This document shows positions 25,986-36,350 of a stretch of 44,467 nucleotides of DNA, in pieces. Below the pieces are notes generated by a model that was given only the letters and a program-made list of their open reading frames with translations, was not told where the DNA came from and did not search any database. Both the position numbers and the translations under genes were made by a program. The stretch covers positions 1-44,467 of the forward strand of contig JAKSVU010000014.1 in NCBI GenBank assembly GCA_024413465.1, read 5' to 3'. This DNA is from Alphaproteobacteria bacterium. GTDB taxonomy: Bacteria; Pseudomonadota; Alphaproteobacteria; CAAGCB01; CAG-977. Each line of letters opens with the position of its first letter. Position 1 is the stretch's first letter.

Positions 25986-26813
25986 ATGGTTATTAAAAGA
26001 TTTCAAAGAAAAATAAATTATACTCCAAAAAAGGTGAAGAAAAAAAACAAGCTGAAATTTTATTTTAGATTGTTTGTGTTTTTATTCGTTCTTTTTAATT
26101 TTATGCAACCGATTTTTTTTAAAAGGTTAATTTTTCCTAGGATATATGGAACTGATTACTTATACCAAGATATTTCTGAAAAAGAATATTTCGAAGATGT
26201 TAATTCTGGCGGTTTTATACTCGAACGAAATGGAAAAAAATATCAACTTGTTCCAAAAGTAAAATATTCTGTAACTGGAAGAGTTGGTATAATGGAACAT
26301 TATGATACGTGGTTCGGAAAGTTTTTTCGAGGTTACTTTCAAGGAGATTACATTAATTTAGCTCCGAGAGATGCACTTATTGTGACTGGGAATATGGCAA
26401 AAAATGATGTTTTTAAAAATTTTAATTTTAAGCATGAAGAAAGAGGTGGATATGTCTTGTGTAAAGGAGTTAAGTACAGAACACATTTTTATTCTGCTTA
26501 CAAAAATGAAGAAGAAGCTCTAAAAAGTGAAGAAAATTATAAAAAGTGTCAGCCTTTCTTAAAAATTGATGAATATAATAATTATCATTTAATTCCAGTA
26601 AATGATGTAATTAACAAAGCCTTAAGTATGTTAAGACATGGTGATGTTGTTTCCCTGTATGGTTTTTTGGTTGATGTTCCAGAAATGAATTTGTCTACAG
26701 GAACTCGAAAAGGGCAAAAACATAATAATTTGATTACGAATGGGATGAATCCTGGGAAATGCTTTATTCTGTACACGGATAAAGTAGTTATAAATAACAT
26801 AGTTTATGAGTAA
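25986..26813 (+). CDS. Unknown membrane-anchored protein after clpA
   Basis: This 275-residue protein begins with a very basic segment (about 1-28) and one hydrophobic anchor (about 29-47, FYFRLFVFLFVLFNF), so it is probably a type II inner-membrane protein with a periplasmic domain. The domain includes YSVTGRVGIMEHYDTWFGKFF and, later, NNYHLIPVNDVINKALSML then GDVVSLYGFLVDV. That last layout reminds me of an uncharacterised proteobacterial family with a HxIP...GDxVxLxGxLV core; this is a memory-based impression. It starts five bases after clpA and may share its transcript. Confidence 0.65.
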   Translation: MVIKRFQRKINYTPKKVKKKNKLKFYFRLFVFLFVLFNFMQPIFFKRLIFPRIYGTDYLYQDISEKEYFEDVNSGGFILERNGKKYQLVPKVKYSVTGRVGIMEHYDTWFGKFFRGYFQGDYINLAPRDALIVTGNMAKNDVFKNFNFKHEERGGYVLCKGVKYRTHFYSAYKNEEEALKSEENYKKCQPFLKIDEYNNYHLIPVNDVINKALSMLRHGDVVSLYGFLVDVPEMNLSTGTRKGQKHNNLITNGMNPGKCFILYTDKVVINNIVYE

Positions 26814-26908: not shown

Positions 26909-27928
26909 GTGCCCCAATATGATGTTACTGCTATCGGTGTTGCTTTCGTTGATGTTGTTGCAAATGTAACAGTTGATTTTTTAGAAAAATATGATTTGAG
27001 TAAAGGTCAAGGAAATGTCTTACCTGTGGCCACTTTAAGAGATATTCGCAGAGAGTTAATGGATTCTCGAGTCATTCCTGGTGGTACGGCGGCAAATTCA
27101 ATGGCAAATTTAGCTTCTTTAGGTGGAAAAGCTGCTTTTATTGGAAAAGCTTGTAAGGATACAATGGGAGAGAGTTTCCAAGATGCTTTTGAAAAACTAG
27201 GCGTGAAAAATTGTGTTCCTTTGGTGGAATTTGACCGTGATGTAGATAAGGCTACGGCTCGTTGTTTGGTTCTTGTTACGCCAGACCATGATAGAACTTT
27301 TGTTTTCAATATGGGGGTTTGTGAGGAATTAGATGAAGCTGATATAGACGTTGAAACAATAAAAAATTCGAAGGTTTTATTTGTTGAAGGTCAAATGTTG
27401 GTTTCTCGTCGTGCTCGCGAGGCTGTTCGTTATGCAATTTCAGTTGCAAAAAAACATTGTGTAAAAGTTGCCTTTAATATGCATGATTTAAACTATCGTG
27501 CAGTTGCTGTTCAAGAGGTTGTTGATATCATTAGAACACAAAGTGATATTTTAATTGGAAATAAGCGTGAGATTTCTGGTGCATTTGAATTAGATCAAGA
27601 CACAGTTTTGGAAGATTTTGTTCAAGTGTTAAATTCAAAACATCAAGTTTTAGCAGTTACGCGTGGATCAAAAGGGGCTTGTATTTTCCATGATGGTGGA
27701 ATAGCAACAATTCCTTCTGAAAATAAATTATCAATTGTCGATTCAACAGGAGCGGGAGATGCTTTTGCTGCGGGATTTTTATTCGGATTGACTCATGATT
27801 TTAGTATAGAAGCTGCTGGTAAAATGGCTGCATTGACAGCTGCTGAAATTATCCAAATTTGGGGTGGTCGACCAGAAAAAAAATTATCAGAAGTTTTTAA
27901 AGATTATATTTCAGAAGCAACACCATAA
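26909..27928 (+). CDS. PfkB-family sugar/nucleoside kinase (adenosine kinase-like)
   Basis: This 339-residue ribokinase-fold enzyme has the PfkB N-terminal signature region GGTAANSMANLASLGGKAAFIGK (from about residue 57, Gly-rich) and the C-terminal anion-hole and catalytic-base motif DSTGAGDAFAAGF (about 275-287). Substrate is not fixed by sequence; its overall pattern is like the alphaproteobacterial proteins annotated as adenosine kinase. The start is GTG, chosen because AAAGGAG stands eight bases before it. It precedes the DprE-like genes with a 78-base gap, so a ribose-related role is plausible but unproven. Confidence 0.8.
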   Translation: MPQYDVTAIGVAFVDVVANVTVDFLEKYDLSKGQGNVLPVATLRDIRRELMDSRVIPGGTAANSMANLASLGGKAAFIGKACKDTMGESFQDAFEKLGVKNCVPLVEFDRDVDKATARCLVLVTPDHDRTFVFNMGVCEELDEADIDVETIKNSKVLFVEGQMLVSRRAREAVRYAISVAKKHCVKVAFNMHDLNYRAVAVQEVVDIIRTQSDILIGNKREISGAFELDQDTVLEDFVQVLNSKHQVLAVTRGSKGACIFHDGGIATIPSENKLSIVDSTGAGDAFAAGFLFGLTHDFSIEAAGKMAALTAAEIIQIWGGRPEKKLSEVFKDYISEATP

Positions 27929-28006: not shown

Positions 28007-29314
28007 ATGCATTGGTATCAAGTTAAATTGACCAGCCGAGCTAGGACGCATAGTTGTGAAGCACAAATTTGTCGTCCAGAAAATATAGATGAGATTCCAA
28101 AAGTTTTAGAGCAAGTAGGGAAAAATGGAATTATAGCTCGAGGAATGGGAAATTCTTATGCAGATCAAACGTTAAATAATGGTGGGGCCGTAATGGTTTT
28201 TGACCACTTAGATCGAATAAGAAGTTTCGATGAAAATACAGGTGAATTAGTTTGTGAGCCAGGAATTACTATCGGTAAAATTTCGGAAATATTTTATAAG
28301 CGAGGTTTTATGTTCCCTGTTGTTGCAGGTTCTGGAAAAAGAACACTTGGAGCAGCAATTGCTGGTAATATTCTTGGAATGAATACAAAGTTTCAACATT
28401 CTTTGGTAGATTCAATCAATTGGGTAGACGTTGTTTTAGCAAATGGAAAAGTTGTCCGTGCAAGTTGGTCAGAAAATTCGGATTTGTTATCTGCAATTGT
28501 TGGTGGGCAAGGACTTGTTGGTTTTATTAGTTTGGTTTCTATTAATTTGCCAAAAATTCCTAGTAAAAATCTGCACGTTATTAAAAATAGATATAATAAT
28601 TTAGATAAATTATTGTTGGCAATGAAAGATGCTCGTAAAAATGCAGATTTTACAGTTGCCTGGTTGGATTCATCTGCGAAAGGAAATCAATTAGGACGTG
28701 GTATTTTAACTACAATGAATTTTACTGAAGAAAAGGAAAATAGTTTTTATCTTCCTAAATTTAAAGGAAAATGTCCAGATTTTATGTCTTTACTAGATTC
28801 TCTTCCAGTCATCAAAACATTGCGGTATCAAGTGATGGGACAATGTGACAAAATAGTGTCTTTTGACAAGTATATTTACCCATCAGATCGTTTTGGTGTA
28901 AGCAGTTGTAAGAACGTCTGTCAATTGCGTTTGTCTGTTCCTGAAGCAGAAGGGCCTCAGGCATTAAGGCGTATTTTAACAGAAATCTCTGCAACTGAAT
29001 TTCATGTAGGTCGTGCAGTGTTACAATTAGTAGAGAAAAATAATAAATCCCTTTTGGCATTCTCAACAAATGGATATTCTTTATCATTAGATTTTGTCAG
29101 GAAAAAAGGTTTAAATGAATTTTTACAACATCTAGAAATGATTGTTTTTGAATGGGGCGGAAAAATTGCTTTGTGTAATGATTCATTAATGACGTTATAT
29201 CAATTAGAAAGAATGTATCCGCGTCTAAAGGAATTTATTCAAACACGTAAGAAATATGATCCGAATGAGAAATTTGTTTCAGATTTTTCAAGGCGTATTT
29301 TTCAAGGAGAATAA
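28007..29314 (+). CDS. DprE1-like FAD-dependent oxidase
   Basis: Family members oxidise C2 of decaprenyl-phospho-ribose to a keto intermediate on the way to the arabinose donor. This 435-residue protein has a VAO/FAD_binding_4 domain: GIIARGMGNSYADQ (about 43-56), LVCEPGITIGKI, TLGAAIAGNILGMN and VGGQGLVGFI. The C-terminal half is the substrate domain with LYQLERMYPRLKEF, ending YDPNEKFVSDFSRR. Co-location with a reductase in the next gene is the usual DprE1-DprE2 arrangement. The polyprenyl substrate is inferred from this pairing. AGGAG precedes the ATG. Confidence 0.75.
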   Translation: MHWYQVKLTSRARTHSCEAQICRPENIDEIPKVLEQVGKNGIIARGMGNSYADQTLNNGGAVMVFDHLDRIRSFDENTGELVCEPGITIGKISEIFYKRGFMFPVVAGSGKRTLGAAIAGNILGMNTKFQHSLVDSINWVDVVLANGKVVRASWSENSDLLSAIVGGQGLVGFISLVSINLPKIPSKNLHVIKNRYNNLDKLLLAMKDARKNADFTVAWLDSSAKGNQLGRGILTTMNFTEEKENSFYLPKFKGKCPDFMSLLDSLPVIKTLRYQVMGQCDKIVSFDKYIYPSDRFGVSSCKNVCQLRLSVPEAEGPQALRRILTEISATEFHVGRAVLQLVEKNNKSLLAFSTNGYSLSLDFVRKKGLNEFLQHLEMIVFEWGGKIALCNDSLMTLYQLERMYPRLKEFIQTRKKYDPNEKFVSDFSRRIFQGE

Positions 29315-29316
29315 AA

Positions 29317-30057
29317 ATGATTTTTGGAAAGAGAACGTGGGTCATTTTAGGAGCTTCTTCCGTTATGGGAAGAGCTTTTGCTCGTCAAGTCGCAAAACAA
29401 GGATATGATTTGATTTTGCTCGATAAAAATAAGACCGATATAGATTTAACAAAAAATGATGTTTTGATACGTTATCCCGATATTGAGGTTCAGACAATTG
29501 AAATTGAACCTACAAATGTTGACAGCTTTTCAAAGGTTGCTAATGAATGCAAACAATTGGCAAAAACATCAATTAGTGTTTTTTGTGCAATGGAAACAGT
29601 TTATTCTCAAAAAGAATGCGGTAAGGATTTGGGAAAAATAAAAAATATGTTTCAAATCAATTATTTTTCACAAATTTATTTTTTGACAGCAATTTCTGAA
29701 ATTTTAATTAATCAACAATGTGGTGAAATTGTTGTGATGGGATCTTTACAAGGTGAATTTGCAAATAAAGATAATTTTGCTTATGGATCTACAAAAGCTG
29801 CTCTTCATATCTGGTTACAAGGATTTTATGAACAAATGTTGGAACATAATGTTTCTGTTTTAACAGTTATGAAAGCTGATTTTGATGAGATTAATGCCCA
29901 AAATATGTCAAAGACGTTTGTTAATCAGGTAAATGCTGAAGCATGTGCAGATTTTTGTTTAAAGTATGCAGGAAGCAAAGAAAAGGTAAAATGTTTTCCT
30001 AAAATTGCTTTTTGGCAGAATAAATTTCGACAAATTAAGAATAAGATTTTTAAGTAG
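29317..30057 (+). CDS. DprE2-like short-chain dehydrogenase
   Basis: This 246-residue SDR probably reduces the keto intermediate made by the preceding oxidase, giving a C2-epimerised (arabino) product. The Rossmann glycine motif is GASSVMGRAFA (about 13-23) and the catalytic Tyr-Lys is YGSTK (about 156-160), preceded by a Ser in MGSLQGE. It begins two bases after the oxidase stop, so coupling is likely. Assignment to the DprE2 role rests mainly on context. Confidence 0.7.
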   Translation: MIFGKRTWVILGASSVMGRAFARQVAKQGYDLILLDKNKTDIDLTKNDVLIRYPDIEVQTIEIEPTNVDSFSKVANECKQLAKTSISVFCAMETVYSQKECGKDLGKIKNMFQINYFSQIYFLTAISEILINQQCGEIVVMGSLQGEFANKDNFAYGSTKAALHIWLQGFYEQMLEHNVSVLTVMKADFDEINAQNMSKTFVNQVNAEACADFCLKYAGSKEKVKCFPKIAFWQNKFRQIKNKIFK

Positions 30058-30069
30058 AGATAATTAGAT

Positions 30070-31788
30070 ATGGAAAAACTTCCCTTTTATGATACGACAG
30101 AAATAAGTTTGAATGATACAACACCTTTGAAAATGACATTTCAAAGTGTTTCAGGGACAGAACAACATATTTTAGGATGTTATACATGTGATGAAAATAT
30201 GGTGTTTGATATCCGATTTTTATTTACGAATGTTTCAGTGAAAACTTTGATTCCAAATATTAGTTCAACCTTTTTGGCAAATCGGCTAGATAATCGTAAG
30301 TTTGTGTTCTTTTTAATTGAAAATGGTTATGCTTTAAATGGAAAAAAAGAGTGGTTTCCAGAGATAAATTCGGGGAAAACAGGTAATTTATTTGCATTTA
30401 AGCATTGCATTGAAAAAAAATGTCAATTGTCTATGCTTCATGGAGAATTTGTTTGGAAAAATGAACAAGGAATTGTTGTAGAACAAGCAAAAAAAATAAC
30501 TCCAAAAGATGAAGAATTTTTTTTAGTTTGGCAATCAGCAAATGGTCAAATTTATCCTATTCAAGGAAACATATTACAATCAATTCCTTGTAATCAAGAA
30601 CAGAAGGTAGCTTTTTTCCCAGAAGAAGAAACATATTCATTAAAGTTGTCATTTGCTAAAAGTAATGCTGAAATCTTTTCTCAACCAATGACTGTTTTTA
30701 AATTACAGATAGGTATGAAAAATTTTGAATTATTAATGAAAAATAGAATAGTTCAACATATTCAGACATTATCAGAAAGAGATAAAGAAATTTTAAGTTG
30801 TCGCATTGAAATACCAGCTGACTTTGAAGATACCTTATATGTCAAGGGTATCGATAAAAAGGCGAATGTTTTAGGATCTTTGTTTAATATTGATTGTAAA
30901 GAGAATATAGTTACTATTTCTAACCAAGCTCCGCTATGGAAATATGAATACCTATTATCGTTAATTTTTGTAAAAACAGATTCATCTACAGTCGCTAAAT
31001 GTCCTGTACATATTAGTTTTAAAACGTTAGATGGAGAAAAATTAATAGATAGTGAGATTTCAATGGTTAATGTTGTCGAAGAAGAATCAATACCAAAAGT
31101 TTTTCAGACACCGACATTTATTAAAACAGATTTGCCGACTTTTTCATTAAATAAAGATAGTATTTTTGATGATTATAAAAGTAAAGAAAGTGTTCCAAGT
31201 TTTTTAACGCAAAATCAATCTGTAAAAATATTGAAAAAAACGGCAGTTTTAATAGAAGTTGAAAAATATAAACAGTTCGCTGATTACCTTGCAAGTAAGG
31301 GATGGACACTGATATTACATTGTTCCGTAATGAATGGTGAAGTTCCTAAGTTGTGTGATGAATTGATGAAAAAATATGGAATAAAAGCTGGATATATTCA
31401 GTCTAATTTATCAATGGAATTAGAAGAATTTTGTACATCAATTGTTGATACTTATGGAGAGATTGATGCTATTGTCGATATTGCTAAGTATATTGATGAA
31501 AAATCAATTTTGACGAAAACAACAGAAGAATTATTGAGATTTTCTGCTTTATTGAGTCAAATGTCTGCTAAAAATAATCAGAAAAATATTTCTGTTTTAG
31601 AATTATTGACAGAGAGTTCGTCACTTGGAGCAGAAATGCTTCAATCATACATTAAACATGTTGCTATAAAAAATATGAGAGTAAATGCAGTCTTTACTGA
31701 ACATATGCAAGATGCTGTAGTTATTGATTTTATGGAACGAATTTTAGAAAACGAGTCTATATCTAATCAGTATCTATATCTATCGTAA
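30070..31788 (+). CDS. Unknown large protein with degenerate SDR-like C-terminus
   Basis: This 572-residue protein is the third gene of the DprE-like run, 12 bases after the reductase. There is no signal peptide or membrane segment. Residues 1-380 look beta-rich and match nothing I know. From about 384 the pattern follows an SDR or pteridine-reductase fold: ASKGWTLILHCS (strand 2), a helix, KAGYIQSNLS, IVDTYGEIDAIVD and VAIKNMRVNAV. The TGxxxGxG loop is missing (only KTAVLIEVEKYKQFA) and no clear YxxxK is seen, so it is probably not a working oxidoreductase. It may be a binding or scaffold subunit for the pathway. Confidence 0.7.
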   Translation: MEKLPFYDTTEISLNDTTPLKMTFQSVSGTEQHILGCYTCDENMVFDIRFLFTNVSVKTLIPNISSTFLANRLDNRKFVFFLIENGYALNGKKEWFPEINSGKTGNLFAFKHCIEKKCQLSMLHGEFVWKNEQGIVVEQAKKITPKDEEFFLVWQSANGQIYPIQGNILQSIPCNQEQKVAFFPEEETYSLKLSFAKSNAEIFSQPMTVFKLQIGMKNFELLMKNRIVQHIQTLSERDKEILSCRIEIPADFEDTLYVKGIDKKANVLGSLFNIDCKENIVTISNQAPLWKYEYLLSLIFVKTDSSTVAKCPVHISFKTLDGEKLIDSEISMVNVVEEESIPKVFQTPTFIKTDLPTFSLNKDSIFDDYKSKESVPSFLTQNQSVKILKKTAVLIEVEKYKQFADYLASKGWTLILHCSVMNGEVPKLCDELMKKYGIKAGYIQSNLSMELEEFCTSIVDTYGEIDAIVDIAKYIDEKSILTKTTEELLRFSALLSQMSAKNNQKNISVLELLTESSSLGAEMLQSYIKHVAIKNMRVNAVFTEHMQDAVVIDFMERILENESISNQYLYLS

Positions 31789-32092: not shown

Positions 32093-33946
32093 ATGGAAGA
32101 TTCTGAAAAGTTACTTGTTGAAGAAAAAGTATTCGAATCTGCAAAAAAATTGACGGGAGCTAATTATGTAAAAAGTAAACTTCCCTTCTTCCCAACATCA
32201 CCAGGTGTATATCGTATGATTTCAGAAACGGGGAAAGTATTATATGTTGGTAAGGCTAAAAATTTAAGAAATAGATTAGATTCATATGCACATCCTGAGC
32301 GAAAACCTGTTCGCATTCAACGCATGATTTTTCAAATAGATCATATTGAATTAATTGAAACAGCAACTGAAGCAGAGGCTTTTTTATTAGAAAATGACTT
32401 AATTAAGAAACTAAAACCATATTATAATATTTTACTGAAAGATGATAAAACGTTTCCACATTTGTTATTAACGACAAAAGATGAATGGCCTCAACTTATT
32501 AAACACAGAGGGGGACAAAATATAAAAGGAGAATATTTTGGTCCATACGCTTCTGCAACGGCAGTTAATGAAACTTTGGCAATTTTACAAAAGGCTTTTT
32601 TACTTAGATCTTGTGCAGATCACGTTTTTCAAAATAGATCTAGACCATGTTTGCTTCATCAAATTAAAAGATGTTGTGCTCCTTGTGCAAATAAAATTTC
32701 AAAAGAAGATTATCAAAAATTAGTTGATGACGTTTTGGATTTTATGCATGGAAAAAGTTCAAAAATTCAAGAAAATTTGATGATAGAAATGAATGAAGCA
32801 AGTGAACAACTTAATTATGAAAAAGCAGCTGTTCTAAGAGATCGTATTCGAGCTTTAAATCAAATTCAATCTCAAAGTATGGATTTGGGAGGTATAGAAA
32901 ATGGGGATGTTGTTGCCGTATATCAAGATGCTGGACAATGTTCGGTAGTTGTTTTCTTCTATAGAAATGGTCGAGGTTGTGGTAGTTATGCGAGTTTTCC
33001 TGAGCAAACAGAAGATCAAACAGATGGAGAAATTTTAAAAGCTTTTTTGGGTCAATTTTATATTCACCATCAAGTGCCTAAAGAAATTTTAGTAAATACA
33101 GAGTTTGATGAATTAGAATTGGTAGGACAAGCTTTTCGTACAAAAATTTCAGCACATGGACGTGGTGCTAAAAAAAGGTTGGTTGATAGGGCTGTTTTAA
33201 ATGCAAAAGAAGCATTGCTTCAAAAAAGAATGCAAGGAATGGTGAGAGCGGATCTGTTAGAACAATTGCGTCAATTAGTTGGGGCTTCTAATCCATTAAA
33301 AAGAATAGAAACGTACGATAATAGCCATATTCAAGGTACAAATGCTGTAGGTGCAATGATTGTAGCAACACCATCAGGATTTGATAAAAAATCTTATCGT
33401 AAATACAATATTGTAGGAATTGGATATACTCCGGGTGATGATTTCCAAATGATGGATGAAGTTCTTACACGAAGATTGAAAAGAGGTTTAGTCGAAGGAA
33501 ATTTACCAGATTTGATTTTGATTGATGGTGGGATGATCCAGCTTCAAATGGCTTTAAACGTGTTAGAGCGTTTACAAATTAAAAATATTATTGCTGTTGG
33601 TGTGGCTAAAGGTGAAGATAGAAATGCAGGTAAAGAAACGTTATATTTTAAGGATAAACTCCCTTTAAATTTGGAATTTGATAATCCAGTTTTGCATTAT
33701 ATTCAAAGATTAAGAGACGAGGCTCACCGTTTCGTTATTACGACTCACCGTGCTAAAAGAAATAAATCGACGTTGGTTTCTGCTTTGGATGAAATAAAGG
33801 GAATAGGTGGAAAACGCAAAAAAGCCTTATTGACTCATTTTGGATCAGTTCAAGCAATTAAATCTGTCAGTTGGGAAGAGATCTCGAAAGTTGCAGGAAT
33901 AAGTGAAGTTCTTGCAAAGCAAATTGAAACAGCTTTGAAATCTTAG
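32093..33946 (+). CDS. uvrC: Excinuclease ABC subunit C
   Basis: UvrC makes the dual incisions around DNA lesions with UvrB. It has 617 residues. In order: the N-terminal GIY-YIG nuclease (SPGVYRM, LYVGKAKNLRNRL, about residues 36-75), a Cys-rich linker with CCAPC, a UVR domain binding UvrB (about 235-270, LNYEKAAVLRDRI), the RNase H-like second nuclease with YDNSHIQGTNAVGAM and LILIDGG, and tandem HhH motifs at the C-terminus (IKGIGGKRKKALLTHFGS). It ends directly against the stop of the convergent alpha-E gene. Confidence 0.97.
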   Translation: MEDSEKLLVEEKVFESAKKLTGANYVKSKLPFFPTSPGVYRMISETGKVLYVGKAKNLRNRLDSYAHPERKPVRIQRMIFQIDHIELIETATEAEAFLLENDLIKKLKPYYNILLKDDKTFPHLLLTTKDEWPQLIKHRGGQNIKGEYFGPYASATAVNETLAILQKAFLLRSCADHVFQNRSRPCLLHQIKRCCAPCANKISKEDYQKLVDDVLDFMHGKSSKIQENLMIEMNEASEQLNYEKAAVLRDRIRALNQIQSQSMDLGGIENGDVVAVYQDAGQCSVVVFFYRNGRGCGSYASFPEQTEDQTDGEILKAFLGQFYIHHQVPKEILVNTEFDELELVGQAFRTKISAHGRGAKKRLVDRAVLNAKEALLQKRMQGMVRADLLEQLRQLVGASNPLKRIETYDNSHIQGTNAVGAMIVATPSGFDKKSYRKYNIVGIGYTPGDDFQMMDEVLTRRLKRGLVEGNLPDLILIDGGMIQLQMALNVLERLQIKNIIAVGVAKGEDRNAGKETLYFKDKLPLNLEFDNPVLHYIQRLRDEAHRFVITTHRAKRNKSTLVSALDEIKGIGGKRKKALLTHFGSVQAIKSVSWEEISKVAGISEVLAKQIETALKS

Positions 33947-34864
33947 TTATATTTGCATAAAATCGTGGCGTATTTGATCAGATAAATCTGCTGTAAATCC
34001 AATAAAATCAGTCAAAAATTTATGAAGTGTTCTTGTTTTTAAAACTTCTTCAAGGTTAGATGTTTCTAAGAAAGTTTGTTCTTGATATGCTAAATTTAAA
34101 GAAGTGGATTGTTTCTTTAATTCAGTTAAACTTGTGATAATTTCATTATAAGCAGATATCATGGATCGAGGAAATATAGGATTGAAGATTAACATTTCAG
34201 CTATTTTATCAGGGCGAATATCTTGCTTATACAACATTTTGTATGCGTGTAATCCGCCAACGGATCGTAAAACTTCTCCCCATTGATAATAATCAATCAA
34301 TTCTCTGTTAGCCCCCTTTGATTGAAGATGGTATTTTACGTCTAGTAGTCGAGCTGTAAAATCAGCACGCTCAATGTAAGTTCCTAATCTGGCAAATTGA
34401 AAAGCTGCATCATAAACCATCATTGATACTGTTAAACCGCGGAATAATTCAGTTCTGTCTTTAACCCAATCAAAAAATTCTGTAAATCCAGATTTGAGAA
34501 TGCCATCATAATACATGGATTGACTTTCAATCCACGTTGTATTGATACTTTCAAACATTTCTTCAGGTAAGATACTTCTTTCAGTTCGAGTATTTTCACG
34601 AGCTGATTTTAAACAAGAAAAAATACTTGAAGGATTTTCATGATCAAAAATCATAAATTTTAAAACATTTTGGGAAGAAAGTTCGTCATATTTTTTATAA
34701 TAACTTTCTTTTTGACCTGAAATAAATAAAATTGGCTCCCAAATGTTTTCAGATTCAGGGAGTTGTTCCATACGGTAAGCTGCTTCTAATAATCGAACGG
34801 TTCCCTGTGATCGTTCAACCTGCCTTGCCATCCAAAAAATATTATCAGCAGTTCTACTAAGCAT
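33947..34864 (-). CDS. Alpha-E domain (DUF403) protein
   Basis: Alpha-E proteins are all-helical partners of circularly permuted ATP-grasp enzymes, thought to take part in an uncharacterised peptide-bond-forming pathway. This one has 305 residues from ATG 34,864. MLSRTADNIFWMARQVER at the N-terminus and GTYIERADFTARLLDVKYH near residue 165 are family hallmarks. It overlaps the upstream ATP-grasp gene by eight bases, so the pair is coupled. The transglutaminase and proteasome-like peptidase often found with this pair are not present in the window. Confidence 0.85.
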   Translation of the reverse strand: MLSRTADNIFWMARQVERSQGTVRLLEAAYRMEQLPESENIWEPILFISGQKESYYKKYDELSSQNVLKFMIFDHENPSSIFSCLKSARENTRTERSILPEEMFESINTTWIESQSMYYDGILKSGFTEFFDWVKDRTELFRGLTVSMMVYDAAFQFARLGTYIERADFTARLLDVKYHLQSKGANRELIDYYQWGEVLRSVGGLHAYKMLYKQDIRPDKIAEMLIFNPIFPRSMISAYNEIITSLTELKKQSTSLNLAYQEQTFLETSNLEEVLKTRTLHKFLTDFIGFTADLSDQIRHDFMQI

Positions 34865-36350
34865 GGGTGTTCTCCTGATTTCCAACAATCCAAGTATCTT
34901 TTGTTCCACCACCTTGGGAAGAGTTTACAACAAGAGATCCTTGTTTCAAAGCAACCCTAGTTAAAGATCCTGGAACAACGGTAACTTTGTCTGGAGATTG
35001 CATAAGAGCATAGGGACGTAAATCAACGTGCCGAGGAGCTAATCCTTCTTCTTGTAGAGTTGGAGATGTTGATAATGATAAGGTTGGTTGTGCTATGTAG
35101 TTTGAAGGTTTCGCTTTGATTTTTGTGCGGAATTCTTCTAACTCAGCTTTTGTTGCTTTTGGTCCAATTAACATTCCGTAACCACCAGAGCCATGTGTTT
35201 CCTTGACAACTAATTCAGATAAATGTTCTAGAACGTAAGTACAATCATCCTTTTTTGATAACGTGTAGGTTTTTACGTTTTCCAAAATTGGCTTTTCTTC
35301 TAAATAAAACTCAATCATTTTTGGAACGTAAGGATATACAGCTTTGTCATCAGCAACACCATTTCCAATGGCATTACAAATTGTTACTTTTCCTTGCATT
35401 GCACTTCGATATAATCCTGGACATCCTAAAACAGAATTTGGATTAAAAGCTTCCGGATCTAAAAAATTATCATCAATTCTGCGATAGATAACGTCAACAC
35501 GTTCAGCACCGTCAATCGTTTGCATATAAACACAATTATCTTTTCCAACAAATAAATCAGCGCCAGTAACTAGATCTACGCCCATTTGAGCAGCAAGAAA
35601 AGCATGTTCGAAGTAGGCACTGTTATAGATGCCAGGCGTTAAAACAACAATTCGAGGATTATCCAGTTCATTTGGGGCAGAGGCCTTTAAAGTTTTCTTT
35701 AATTCATGTGGGTAATGATTAATTGGAAGTATATTGTATTTTTTAAACAATTCAGGAAATAAACGAGACATCACTTCTCTGTTTTCTAGCATGTATGAAA
35801 CGCCAGAAGGACAACGCAGATTATCTTCTAATACATAAAAAGTGTCAGGGGATGTTCGAATAATATCAATACCGGAAATGTGGGTATGTACGTTATTGGG
35901 AGGAATAAAATTTTCAACAGCTCGTGTGTATTCTGAATTTTGTAAAATAAGATCAGAAGGAATGATATTTTCTTTCAAGATTTTTTTTGATGTATAAATA
36001 TCATTTAGAAAAGCATTAAGAGCCTTGACACGTTGGCAAACGCCAGCATTTATCTTTTCCCATTCACTGCTCGATAAAATCCTAGGAATCGGATCAAAAG
36101 GGATAAGTCGTTCTACACCAGATTGTTCACCATATACGGCAAAAGTGATACCAATTCTACGAAAAATTAAATCAGCTAGTTTGTTTTTAGCATCAAAACT
36201 AGTTTGTTTGGATAGCCAGGCGTCGTATATCTTGTAAACTTCAGTAAGACATCCGTCACCTGTTCTTGTTTCATCATAAGAATAAGGTTTGTAGTTAGTT
36301 AAACTATATTTATATTCAGATTCCATAGATAATATCCAATCAAAATTCAT
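34857..36350 (-). CDS. Circularly permuted type 2 ATP-grasp protein
   Basis: This 497-residue protein matches the DUF404/DUF407 family of ATP-grasp ligases. Visible patterns are YDE near the start, GIDIIRTSPDTFYVLEDNLR (about residues 150-170), RPSGVSYM-like CPSGVSYMLENR, VIYRRIDDNFLDPEAF, NAIGNGVADDKAVYPYVP, KETHGSGGYGMLIGP and, at the end, RVALKQGSLVVNSSQGGGTKDTW. The family probably activates carboxylates on peptides, but substrates are unknown. The start could be ATG 36,350 or 36,326; neither has a good ribosome site. Confidence 0.85.
   Translation of the reverse strand: MNFDWILSMESEYKYSLTNYKPYSYDETRTGDGCLTEVYKIYDAWLSKQTSFDAKNKLADLIFRRIGITFAVYGEQSGVERLIPFDPIPRILSSSEWEKINAGVCQRVKALNAFLNDIYTSKKILKENIIPSDLILQNSEYTRAVENFIPPNNVHTHISGIDIIRTSPDTFYVLEDNLRCPSGVSYMLENREVMSRLFPELFKKYNILPINHYPHELKKTLKASAPNELDNPRIVVLTPGIYNSAYFEHAFLAAQMGVDLVTGADLFVGKDNCVYMQTIDGAERVDVIYRRIDDNFLDPEAFNPNSVLGCPGLYRSAMQGKVTICNAIGNGVADDKAVYPYVPKMIEFYLEEKPILENVKTYTLSKKDDCTYVLEHLSELVVKETHGSGGYGMLIGPKATKAELEEFRTKIKAKPSNYIAQPTLSLSTSPTLQEEGLAPRHVDLRPYALMQSPDKVTVVPGSLTRVALKQGSLVVNSSQGGGTKDTWIVGNQENTHA

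Follow-up and report, generated by a model that had tools for sequence, protein, structure and literature searches.

We analyzed a 44,467-nucleotide (nt) stretch of alphaproteobacterial DNA (assembly GCA_024413465.1, contig JAKSVU010000014.1; hereafter, the window), in which three plus-strand open reading frames (ORFs) encode a flavin adenine dinucleotide (FAD) oxidase related to DprE1, a short-chain dehydrogenase/reductase (SDR) resembling DprE2, and a third protein of 572 residues (Table 1). The ORFs are separated by 2 nt (oxidase/SDR) and 12 nt (SDR/third gene), and these short gaps suggest that the trio is co-transcribed in the window. An earlier note, made from the sequence alone, had stated that the operon runs on into the third protein, and the ORF coordinates are exact. 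The next gene, uvrC, starts 304 nt after the third gene.

Table 1. Features of the trio and of its immediate neighbors in the window (aa, amino acids; AF2, AlphaFold2)
Feature	Coordinates	Strand	Extent	Basis
DprE1-like FAD oxidase	28007..29314	+	435 aa	ORF, Pfam/NF053785, PDB match, active-site alignment
DprE2-like SDR	29317..30057	+	246 aa	Ser-Tyr-Lys and LGxxxxxG cofactor loop; NF053786 match below cut-off
Third protein, DUF4114/cadherin-like module and degenerate FolM (PRK09134-type) SDR	30070..31788	+	572 aa	Homologs, profiles, AF2
N-terminal beta-rich module of third protein: DUF4114-like, then cadherin/calsyntenin-like unit	30070..31074	+	Residues 1-335	Profile comparison
Linker of third protein, low confidence, poorly conserved	31075..31233	+	About residues 336-388	AF2, alignment
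Degenerate FolM-type SDR of third protein; glycine loop, Asn, Tyr, and Lys lost	31234..31785	+	Residues 389-572	AF2, alignment
uvrC, downstream of third gene	32093..33946	+		Loci reading
PfkB-family sugar kinase, upstream of dprE-like pair	26909..27928	+		Family match, loci reading

A first search, covering 60 relatives, detected homologs of the third protein in 11 of 11 same-family genomes and in a single member (G032) of a second family, f22. A search of the class (385 genomes) recovered homologs in two further f22 genomes, G163 and G260, and a search of the phylum (398 genomes) added partial matches only, within long frames of 1883-3742 aa. The window genome (G000, genus g1) is a fragmented metagenome-assembled genome (MAG), 97% complete; within the same family, G004 represents genus g2 and G005-G011 represent genus g3. 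Reading of the loci, a check that the earlier note had proposed, showed the third gene adjoining the dprE-like pair in the same three-gene order in 10 of the 11 same-family genomes. Because the third gene is conserved in all 11 and lies beside the pair in 10, it is not a chance ORF. A frameshift pseudogene was likewise ruled out, as the 572-codon frame is open and the homology extends along its full length.

The third protein has no Pfam match. Its only SDR matches are weak and fall at residues 401-490, the best being to PRK09134 and to PRK09135, a pteridine reductase; the window protein scores 17.4 bits against PRK09134, below the cut-off of 281. The SDR domains of the homologs from G004 (291.2 bits) and G032 (282.3 bits) exceed this cut-off, and the window SDR matches that of G004 with an E value of 3e-19. 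The closest solved structures for the SDR profile are those of Brucella FolM (5tgd/5bt9, PMC8725004). By homology through these relatives, the C terminus of the third protein can be identified as FolM (PRK09134, pteridine/dihydrofolate-reductase type). An origin as a duplicated DprE2 was ruled out, the nearest family being PRK09134/FolM.

The AF2 model of the window protein (mean predicted local distance difference test score 69.6, low at residues 336-385) combines a beta-rich N terminus with an alpha/beta C terminus, in which the SDR fold is placed at residues 384-572. The top Foldseek match of this model was Trypanosoma brucei PTR1 (E value 4.6e-6, probability 1.0), with a template modeling score normalized by target of 0.44 and a root mean square deviation of 6.6. 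VIA-align gave a Z score of 13.5 over 165 residues for residues 385-572; the structure comparison of the G004 homolog gave about 27, with FolM at 26.7. The alignment behind the AF2 model includes relatives whose SDR is better preserved, and this aids the modeling of the window protein. As modeled, the C terminus is confirmed to keep the Rossmann/SDR fold. The earlier note had described this C-terminal third as an SDR fold without the glycine loop and the catalytic Tyr-Lys, to be compared with SDR enzymes, and AF2, Foldseek, VIA-align, and the alignment agree with that description, PTR1 being the best match. Of the two findings that the note had named as counting against its reading, a C-terminal region lacking a Rossmann-like fold and a third gene kept beside the pair in no relative, neither was observed.

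The relatives retain different states of this active site. The glycine loop and the YxxxK motif are intact in the alignment for G004 and G032, and likewise by reading in G163 and G260. In g3, the Lys is missing and the glycine loop retained in 7 of 7 genomes. In g1, Tyr-Lys is absent and the glycine loop is eroded to a varying extent: it still reads TGATGKIG in G001 and is most eroded in the window, where it reads IEV--EKY and the Tyr-Lys position reads ---SS. Judging from these alignments, the FolM active site was lost stepwise within the window's family, the Lys first and then the glycine loop and Tyr. In the UvrC tree, g1 forms one clade (support 96/99) and g3 a weaker one (78/93), and the placement of G004 relative to both is left unfixed; thus, the order of events is taken from character states and not from a firm tree. 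The Lys-less SDR domain of g3 has an NG86 ratio of nonsynonymous to synonymous substitution rates (dN/dS) of 0.11-0.17, as compared to 0.13-0.20 for the N-terminal module and 0.04-0.06 for UvrC in the same genus, indicating that it is maintained under purifying selection.

The identity of the N-terminal module emerged from profile comparisons. None of the 13 third-protein members has a DUF4114 match in Pfam, and beyond the fusion families a profile of residues 1-335 gave only weaker matches. Among these, each of the seven scanned proteins that match the first quarter of the profile (about positions 7-91) carries DUF4114 (one of the seven assignments lies below the Pfam cut-off), mostly together with RTX repeats or cadherin-like domains, and two proteins matched at 242-335 are of the RTX/cadherin type. 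A profile-profile comparison by hhalign against five such proteins reached 99.4% probability (E value 2.8e-21) over 236 columns, which include the start of the beta unit that follows DUF4114. The closest secreted-type relative found was a 750-aa DUF4114 protein from G122 (L050:544-2793), which matches both halves of the module. No solved structure was matched by the sequence of the module, and the fold-search lists of the third protein were filled by SDR matches; its identity rests on sequence profiles. These point to an N terminus composed of the DUF4114 and cadherin-like module of secreted RTX proteins. The earlier note had read the protein as a dead SDR fused to a new beta-rich domain: the dead SDR and the beta-rich fusion stand, and the novelty of the domain was ruled out by the matches to DUF4114 proteins and the profile-profile comparison. 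A limited literature search found no paper on a DUF4114-FolM fusion.

The third protein resembles secreted DUF4114 (PF13448) proteins of the RTX/cadherin type in the aligned N-terminal module, but it differs from them in lacking RTX repeats, the DxDxND-type acidic signature, and a visible secretion signal, and in being fused to a cytosolic reductase. The acidic calcium-type signature ED..GGD.D(F/Y).D (FEDLxNGGDxDF in the secreted proteins) is absent from the third-protein alignment. The protein begins MEKLPFYDTTEISLND and shows no obvious signal peptide, from which we infer that it is cytosolic.

Where the contigs reach, the order PfkB - DprE1-like - DprE2-like - third - uvrC is kept in g1 and g3; at some of these loci PfkB and the oxidase are separated by an additional gene, and the contig of G003 begins within the oxidase gene. 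The pair adjoins the third gene in these two genera only. In G004, the third gene and uvrC share a contig; PfkB-DprE1-DprE2 is found on a separate one, and both groups are flanked by other genes there. G032 has the order uvrB - third - uvrC and yielded no DprE1-like gene. The third gene lies directly before uvrC in all 13 loci read, the window included. Because this adjacency is kept even where the pair is elsewhere or the oxidase undetected, uvrC is the invariant neighbor of the third gene; uvrC, rather than the dprE pair, is also its oldest neighbor. Adjacency of FolM and uvrC is common across the Alphaproteobacteria: PRK09134 was found in 72 of 115 sampled genomes, and among the 70 in which both genes were listed, it lies directly upstream of uvrC, on the same strand and at most 2 kb away, in 43 and on a different contig in 18. 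Thus, the third gene corresponds to the FolM-uvrC pair of the class with an added N-terminal module. It shares with FolM/PRK09134 the SDR homology, the PTR1-like fold, and the place directly upstream of uvrC, but differs by the 335-aa DUF4114/cadherin-like module and, in the window's genus, by the loss of the glycine loop, Asn, Tyr, and Lys.

The main rival explanation is rearrangement without a functional link, in which the FolM fusion is tied to uvrC by ancestry and the pair came to be placed in front of it, with relaxed constraint or drift in the SDR part and whatever function remains borne by the DUF4114-like module. It would account for the retention of third-uvrC in G004, where the pair is elsewhere, and in G032, where the oxidase is undetected, as well as for the SDR part of g1, which shrinks and diverges more than the N-terminal module (25-26% versus 33-34% identity). 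However, the order is kept in 10 of 11 relatives from two genera, the spacing in the window is 2 and 12 nt, and the Lys-less SDR of g3 is under purifying selection. We consider this explanation possible but on balance unlikely.

The oxidase matches DprE1 (NF053785) over its full length (residues 6-431; E value 1.9e-73, 248 bits) as well as DprE1 in the PDB (E value 1.8e-43), and it carries PF01565 (FAD_binding_4, 3e-23) and PF04030 (ALO-type) matches. Its score lies below the NF053785 cut-off of 500 bits. The oxidases of the window's family score 215-304 bits, as compared to 357-445 bits in other alphaproteobacteria (one at 158); because the latter also remain under 500 bits, the missed cut-off alone is weak evidence. 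We aligned the oxidases with Mycobacterium smegmatis DprE1 and 12 DprE1-like proteins of other alphaproteobacterial families, using Mycobacterium tuberculosis (Mtb) numbering. R58, H132, K134, K367, and K418 are kept in 0 of 11 oxidases of the window's family, as compared to 12 of 12 DprE1-like proteins of the other families. The window oxidase carries the changes R58 to N, H132 to L, K134 to M, K367 to Q, and K418 to N; at position 418, family members have either Asn or Asp. Y60, W230, and the flavin-loop glycine that follows H132 have for the most part been retained in the family. In DprE1, H132, K134, K367, and K418 are needed for catalysis. These four, but not R58, are listed as residues that contact inhibitors in the active site (PMC6128881). 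Judging from the alignment, the oxidase departs from canonical DprE1, having retained the flavin domain and lost the substrate-side residues. In the 12 proteins of the other families (L081-L092), all of which keep the other active-site residues, Ala occupies the position of Mtb Cys387, the residue covalently modified by benzothiazinones.

A retuned oxidase would still bind FAD and oxidize a different sugar or lipid, with the SDR as its partner and the third protein binding or presenting the substrate. The FAD_binding_4 match, the mostly retained Y60, W230, and flavin-loop glycine, and an NG86 dN/dS of 0.08-0.12 are consistent with this explanation. However, no alternative catalytic residue was identified, position 418 varies between Asn and Asp, and the PfkB kinase is the sole substrate-linked neighbor, so that we regard it as rather doubtful.

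The second protein scores 71.9 bits against NF053786 (DprE2), below the cut-off of 250, and DprE2 is one of several weak relatives. The DprE1/DprE2-like pair named in the earlier note is therefore a full-length DprE1 relative followed by an SDR that is DprE2-like only. In the window, this SDR has an intact catalytic Ser-Tyr-Lys and an LGxxxxxG loop, and it is the only member of the trio with a complete catalytic set. Ser and Lys are present in 12 of 12 DprE2-like SDRs; the motif, in a region of the form GS...YGSTKAA or FGSTKAA, reads YGSTK in the window and G001-G004 and FGSTK in G005-G011. In these g3 proteins (L034-L040; for example, L034:7410-8111), the catalytic Tyr position is Phe. Thus, the DprE2-like SDR may be altered there too, and active-site loss may extend to it in g3.

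The pair resembles the DprE1/DprE2 decaprenylphosphoryl-ribose 2'-epimerase and Gram-negative pentofuranose systems (PMC11127046) in its order and in the full-length similarity of the oxidase. It differs from them in that both proteins lie below the family cut-offs, the active-site residues of the oxidase are lost, and the UbiA donor synthase is undetected in the genome. In the known systems, a polyprenyl-phosphate phosphoribosyltransferase makes the ribose donor for DprE1/E2 (PMC11127046), and DprE1 recycles its FAD with O2 or menaquinone (PMC11841060). Among five genomes searched, G000, G002, G004, and G032 gave no UbiA-family match; only G005 has one, to a protein like decaprenyl-phosphate phosphoribosyltransferase (191.8 bits against a cut-off of 207). 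Thus, the window genome has no detectable polyprenyl-phosphate phosphoribosyltransferase. Within the loci read, no glycosyltransferase or phosphatase gene was recognized beside the pair.

The earlier note had suggested that the third protein could be a scaffold or substrate-holding subunit in a three-part envelope sugar pathway. Read as an envelope pathway of the arabinan type, with a functional epimerase of the DprE1/DprE2 kind scaffolded by the third protein, this would fit the full-length DprE1 similarity, the intact DprE2-like SDR, the conserved synteny, and the UbiA protein of G005. However, the five DprE1 residues are lost in 11 of 11 oxidases, the UbiA match is absent from four of the five genomes, including the window's own, no glycosyltransferase or phosphatase gene accompanies the pair in the loci read, and the quinone or O2 requirement of DprE1 (PMC11841060) fits poorly with a gut and rumen lineage without UbiA. 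With uvrC also being the older partner, we do not uphold this proposal: such a pathway is very unlikely, and the three proteins probably do not form a functional route to arabinose.

Concerning the ancestral function of the reductase, FolA was found in 6 of 11 genomes with a broken SDR versus 0 of 4 with an intact one. A simple folate rescue, in which FolM dies upon the gain of FolA, was considered and is suggestive only, since G000 has no FolA, ThyX, or ThyA match. The lack of FolA, ThyX, ThyA, and UbiA matches in G000 reflects either an auxotrophy for thymidylate/folate or missing parts of the MAG. In G002, FolA adjoins ThyA (C6:47047-48397), and this genome lacks the ThyX that most relatives have; it is possible that FolA-ThyA replaced the ThyX/FolM route there. 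The g3 genomes G005-G007, G009, and G010 have weak DHFR_1 matches (25-33 bits), which perhaps represent divergent dihydrofolate reductases.

With moderate confidence, we favor the explanation that the third protein is a fusion of FolM and DUF4114 whose SDR died stepwise, and that the trio is not a ribose-to-arabinose epimerase but one active reductase with two noncatalytic or retuned partners. Sequence comparisons show that the alphaproteobacterial FolM beside uvrC acquired, at its front, a DUF4114/cadherin-like module of the kind found in secreted RTX-type proteins. After the fusion, the active site was lost in the window's family, the Lys preceding the glycine loop and Tyr; the window protein would no longer reduce pterin. 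SDR subunits commonly associate as tetramers. The SDR remnant would most likely serve as a noncatalytic partner, for example by pairing with the active DprE2-like SDR, and the beta-sandwich module may act in binding or docking within the cytosol. The trio most likely comprises one active SDR and two proteins without their ancestral chemistry, possibly forming a heteromeric, non-arabinan complex. In BbsCD, BbsC is the inactive subunit. This heterotetrameric SDR (PDB 7pcs), composed of an active SDR and a pseudo-SDR, is a possible model for the trio; the two differ in chemistry, and BbsCD has no DUF4114 module. A three-protein cytosolic complex, in which the DprE1-derived and DUF4114-FolM pseudoenzymes were recruited into one operon with the active SDR while losing activity, is a more speculative extension that we put forward only tentatively.

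Several points weigh against the favored explanation. The SDR remnant of the window may be drifting, g1 being too divergent for dN/dS, and the partner role of the third protein is one that we infer. The adjacency of the pair and the catalytic loss coincide, possibly as a single evolutionary event. Motifs for FAD binding persist in the oxidase, which could use a different substrate. Last, the absence of UbiA from the window genome was read from a single fragmented MAG (97% complete).

Elsewhere in the window, a 275-aa protein is encoded between clpA and the PfkB gene (25986-26813); it matches no family significantly, and tblastn did not detect it within the loci of relatives that were read. An overlapping minus-strand pair at 33947-36350 encodes an Alpha-E protein and a circularly permuted ATP-grasp protein.

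The degenerate FolM fusion belongs to a single lineage of bacteria from gut and rumen, and it suggests that a module of secreted adhesins has been reused inside the cell. At one locus with a fixed neighbor, the relatives retain successive stages from a working reductase to a fully degenerate SDR, and the Lys-less stage in g3 is still under purifying selection. Because these stages are preserved, the order of active-site loss can be read and tested. DprE1/DprE2-like labels in gut Alphaproteobacteria should not be equated with arabinan synthesis.

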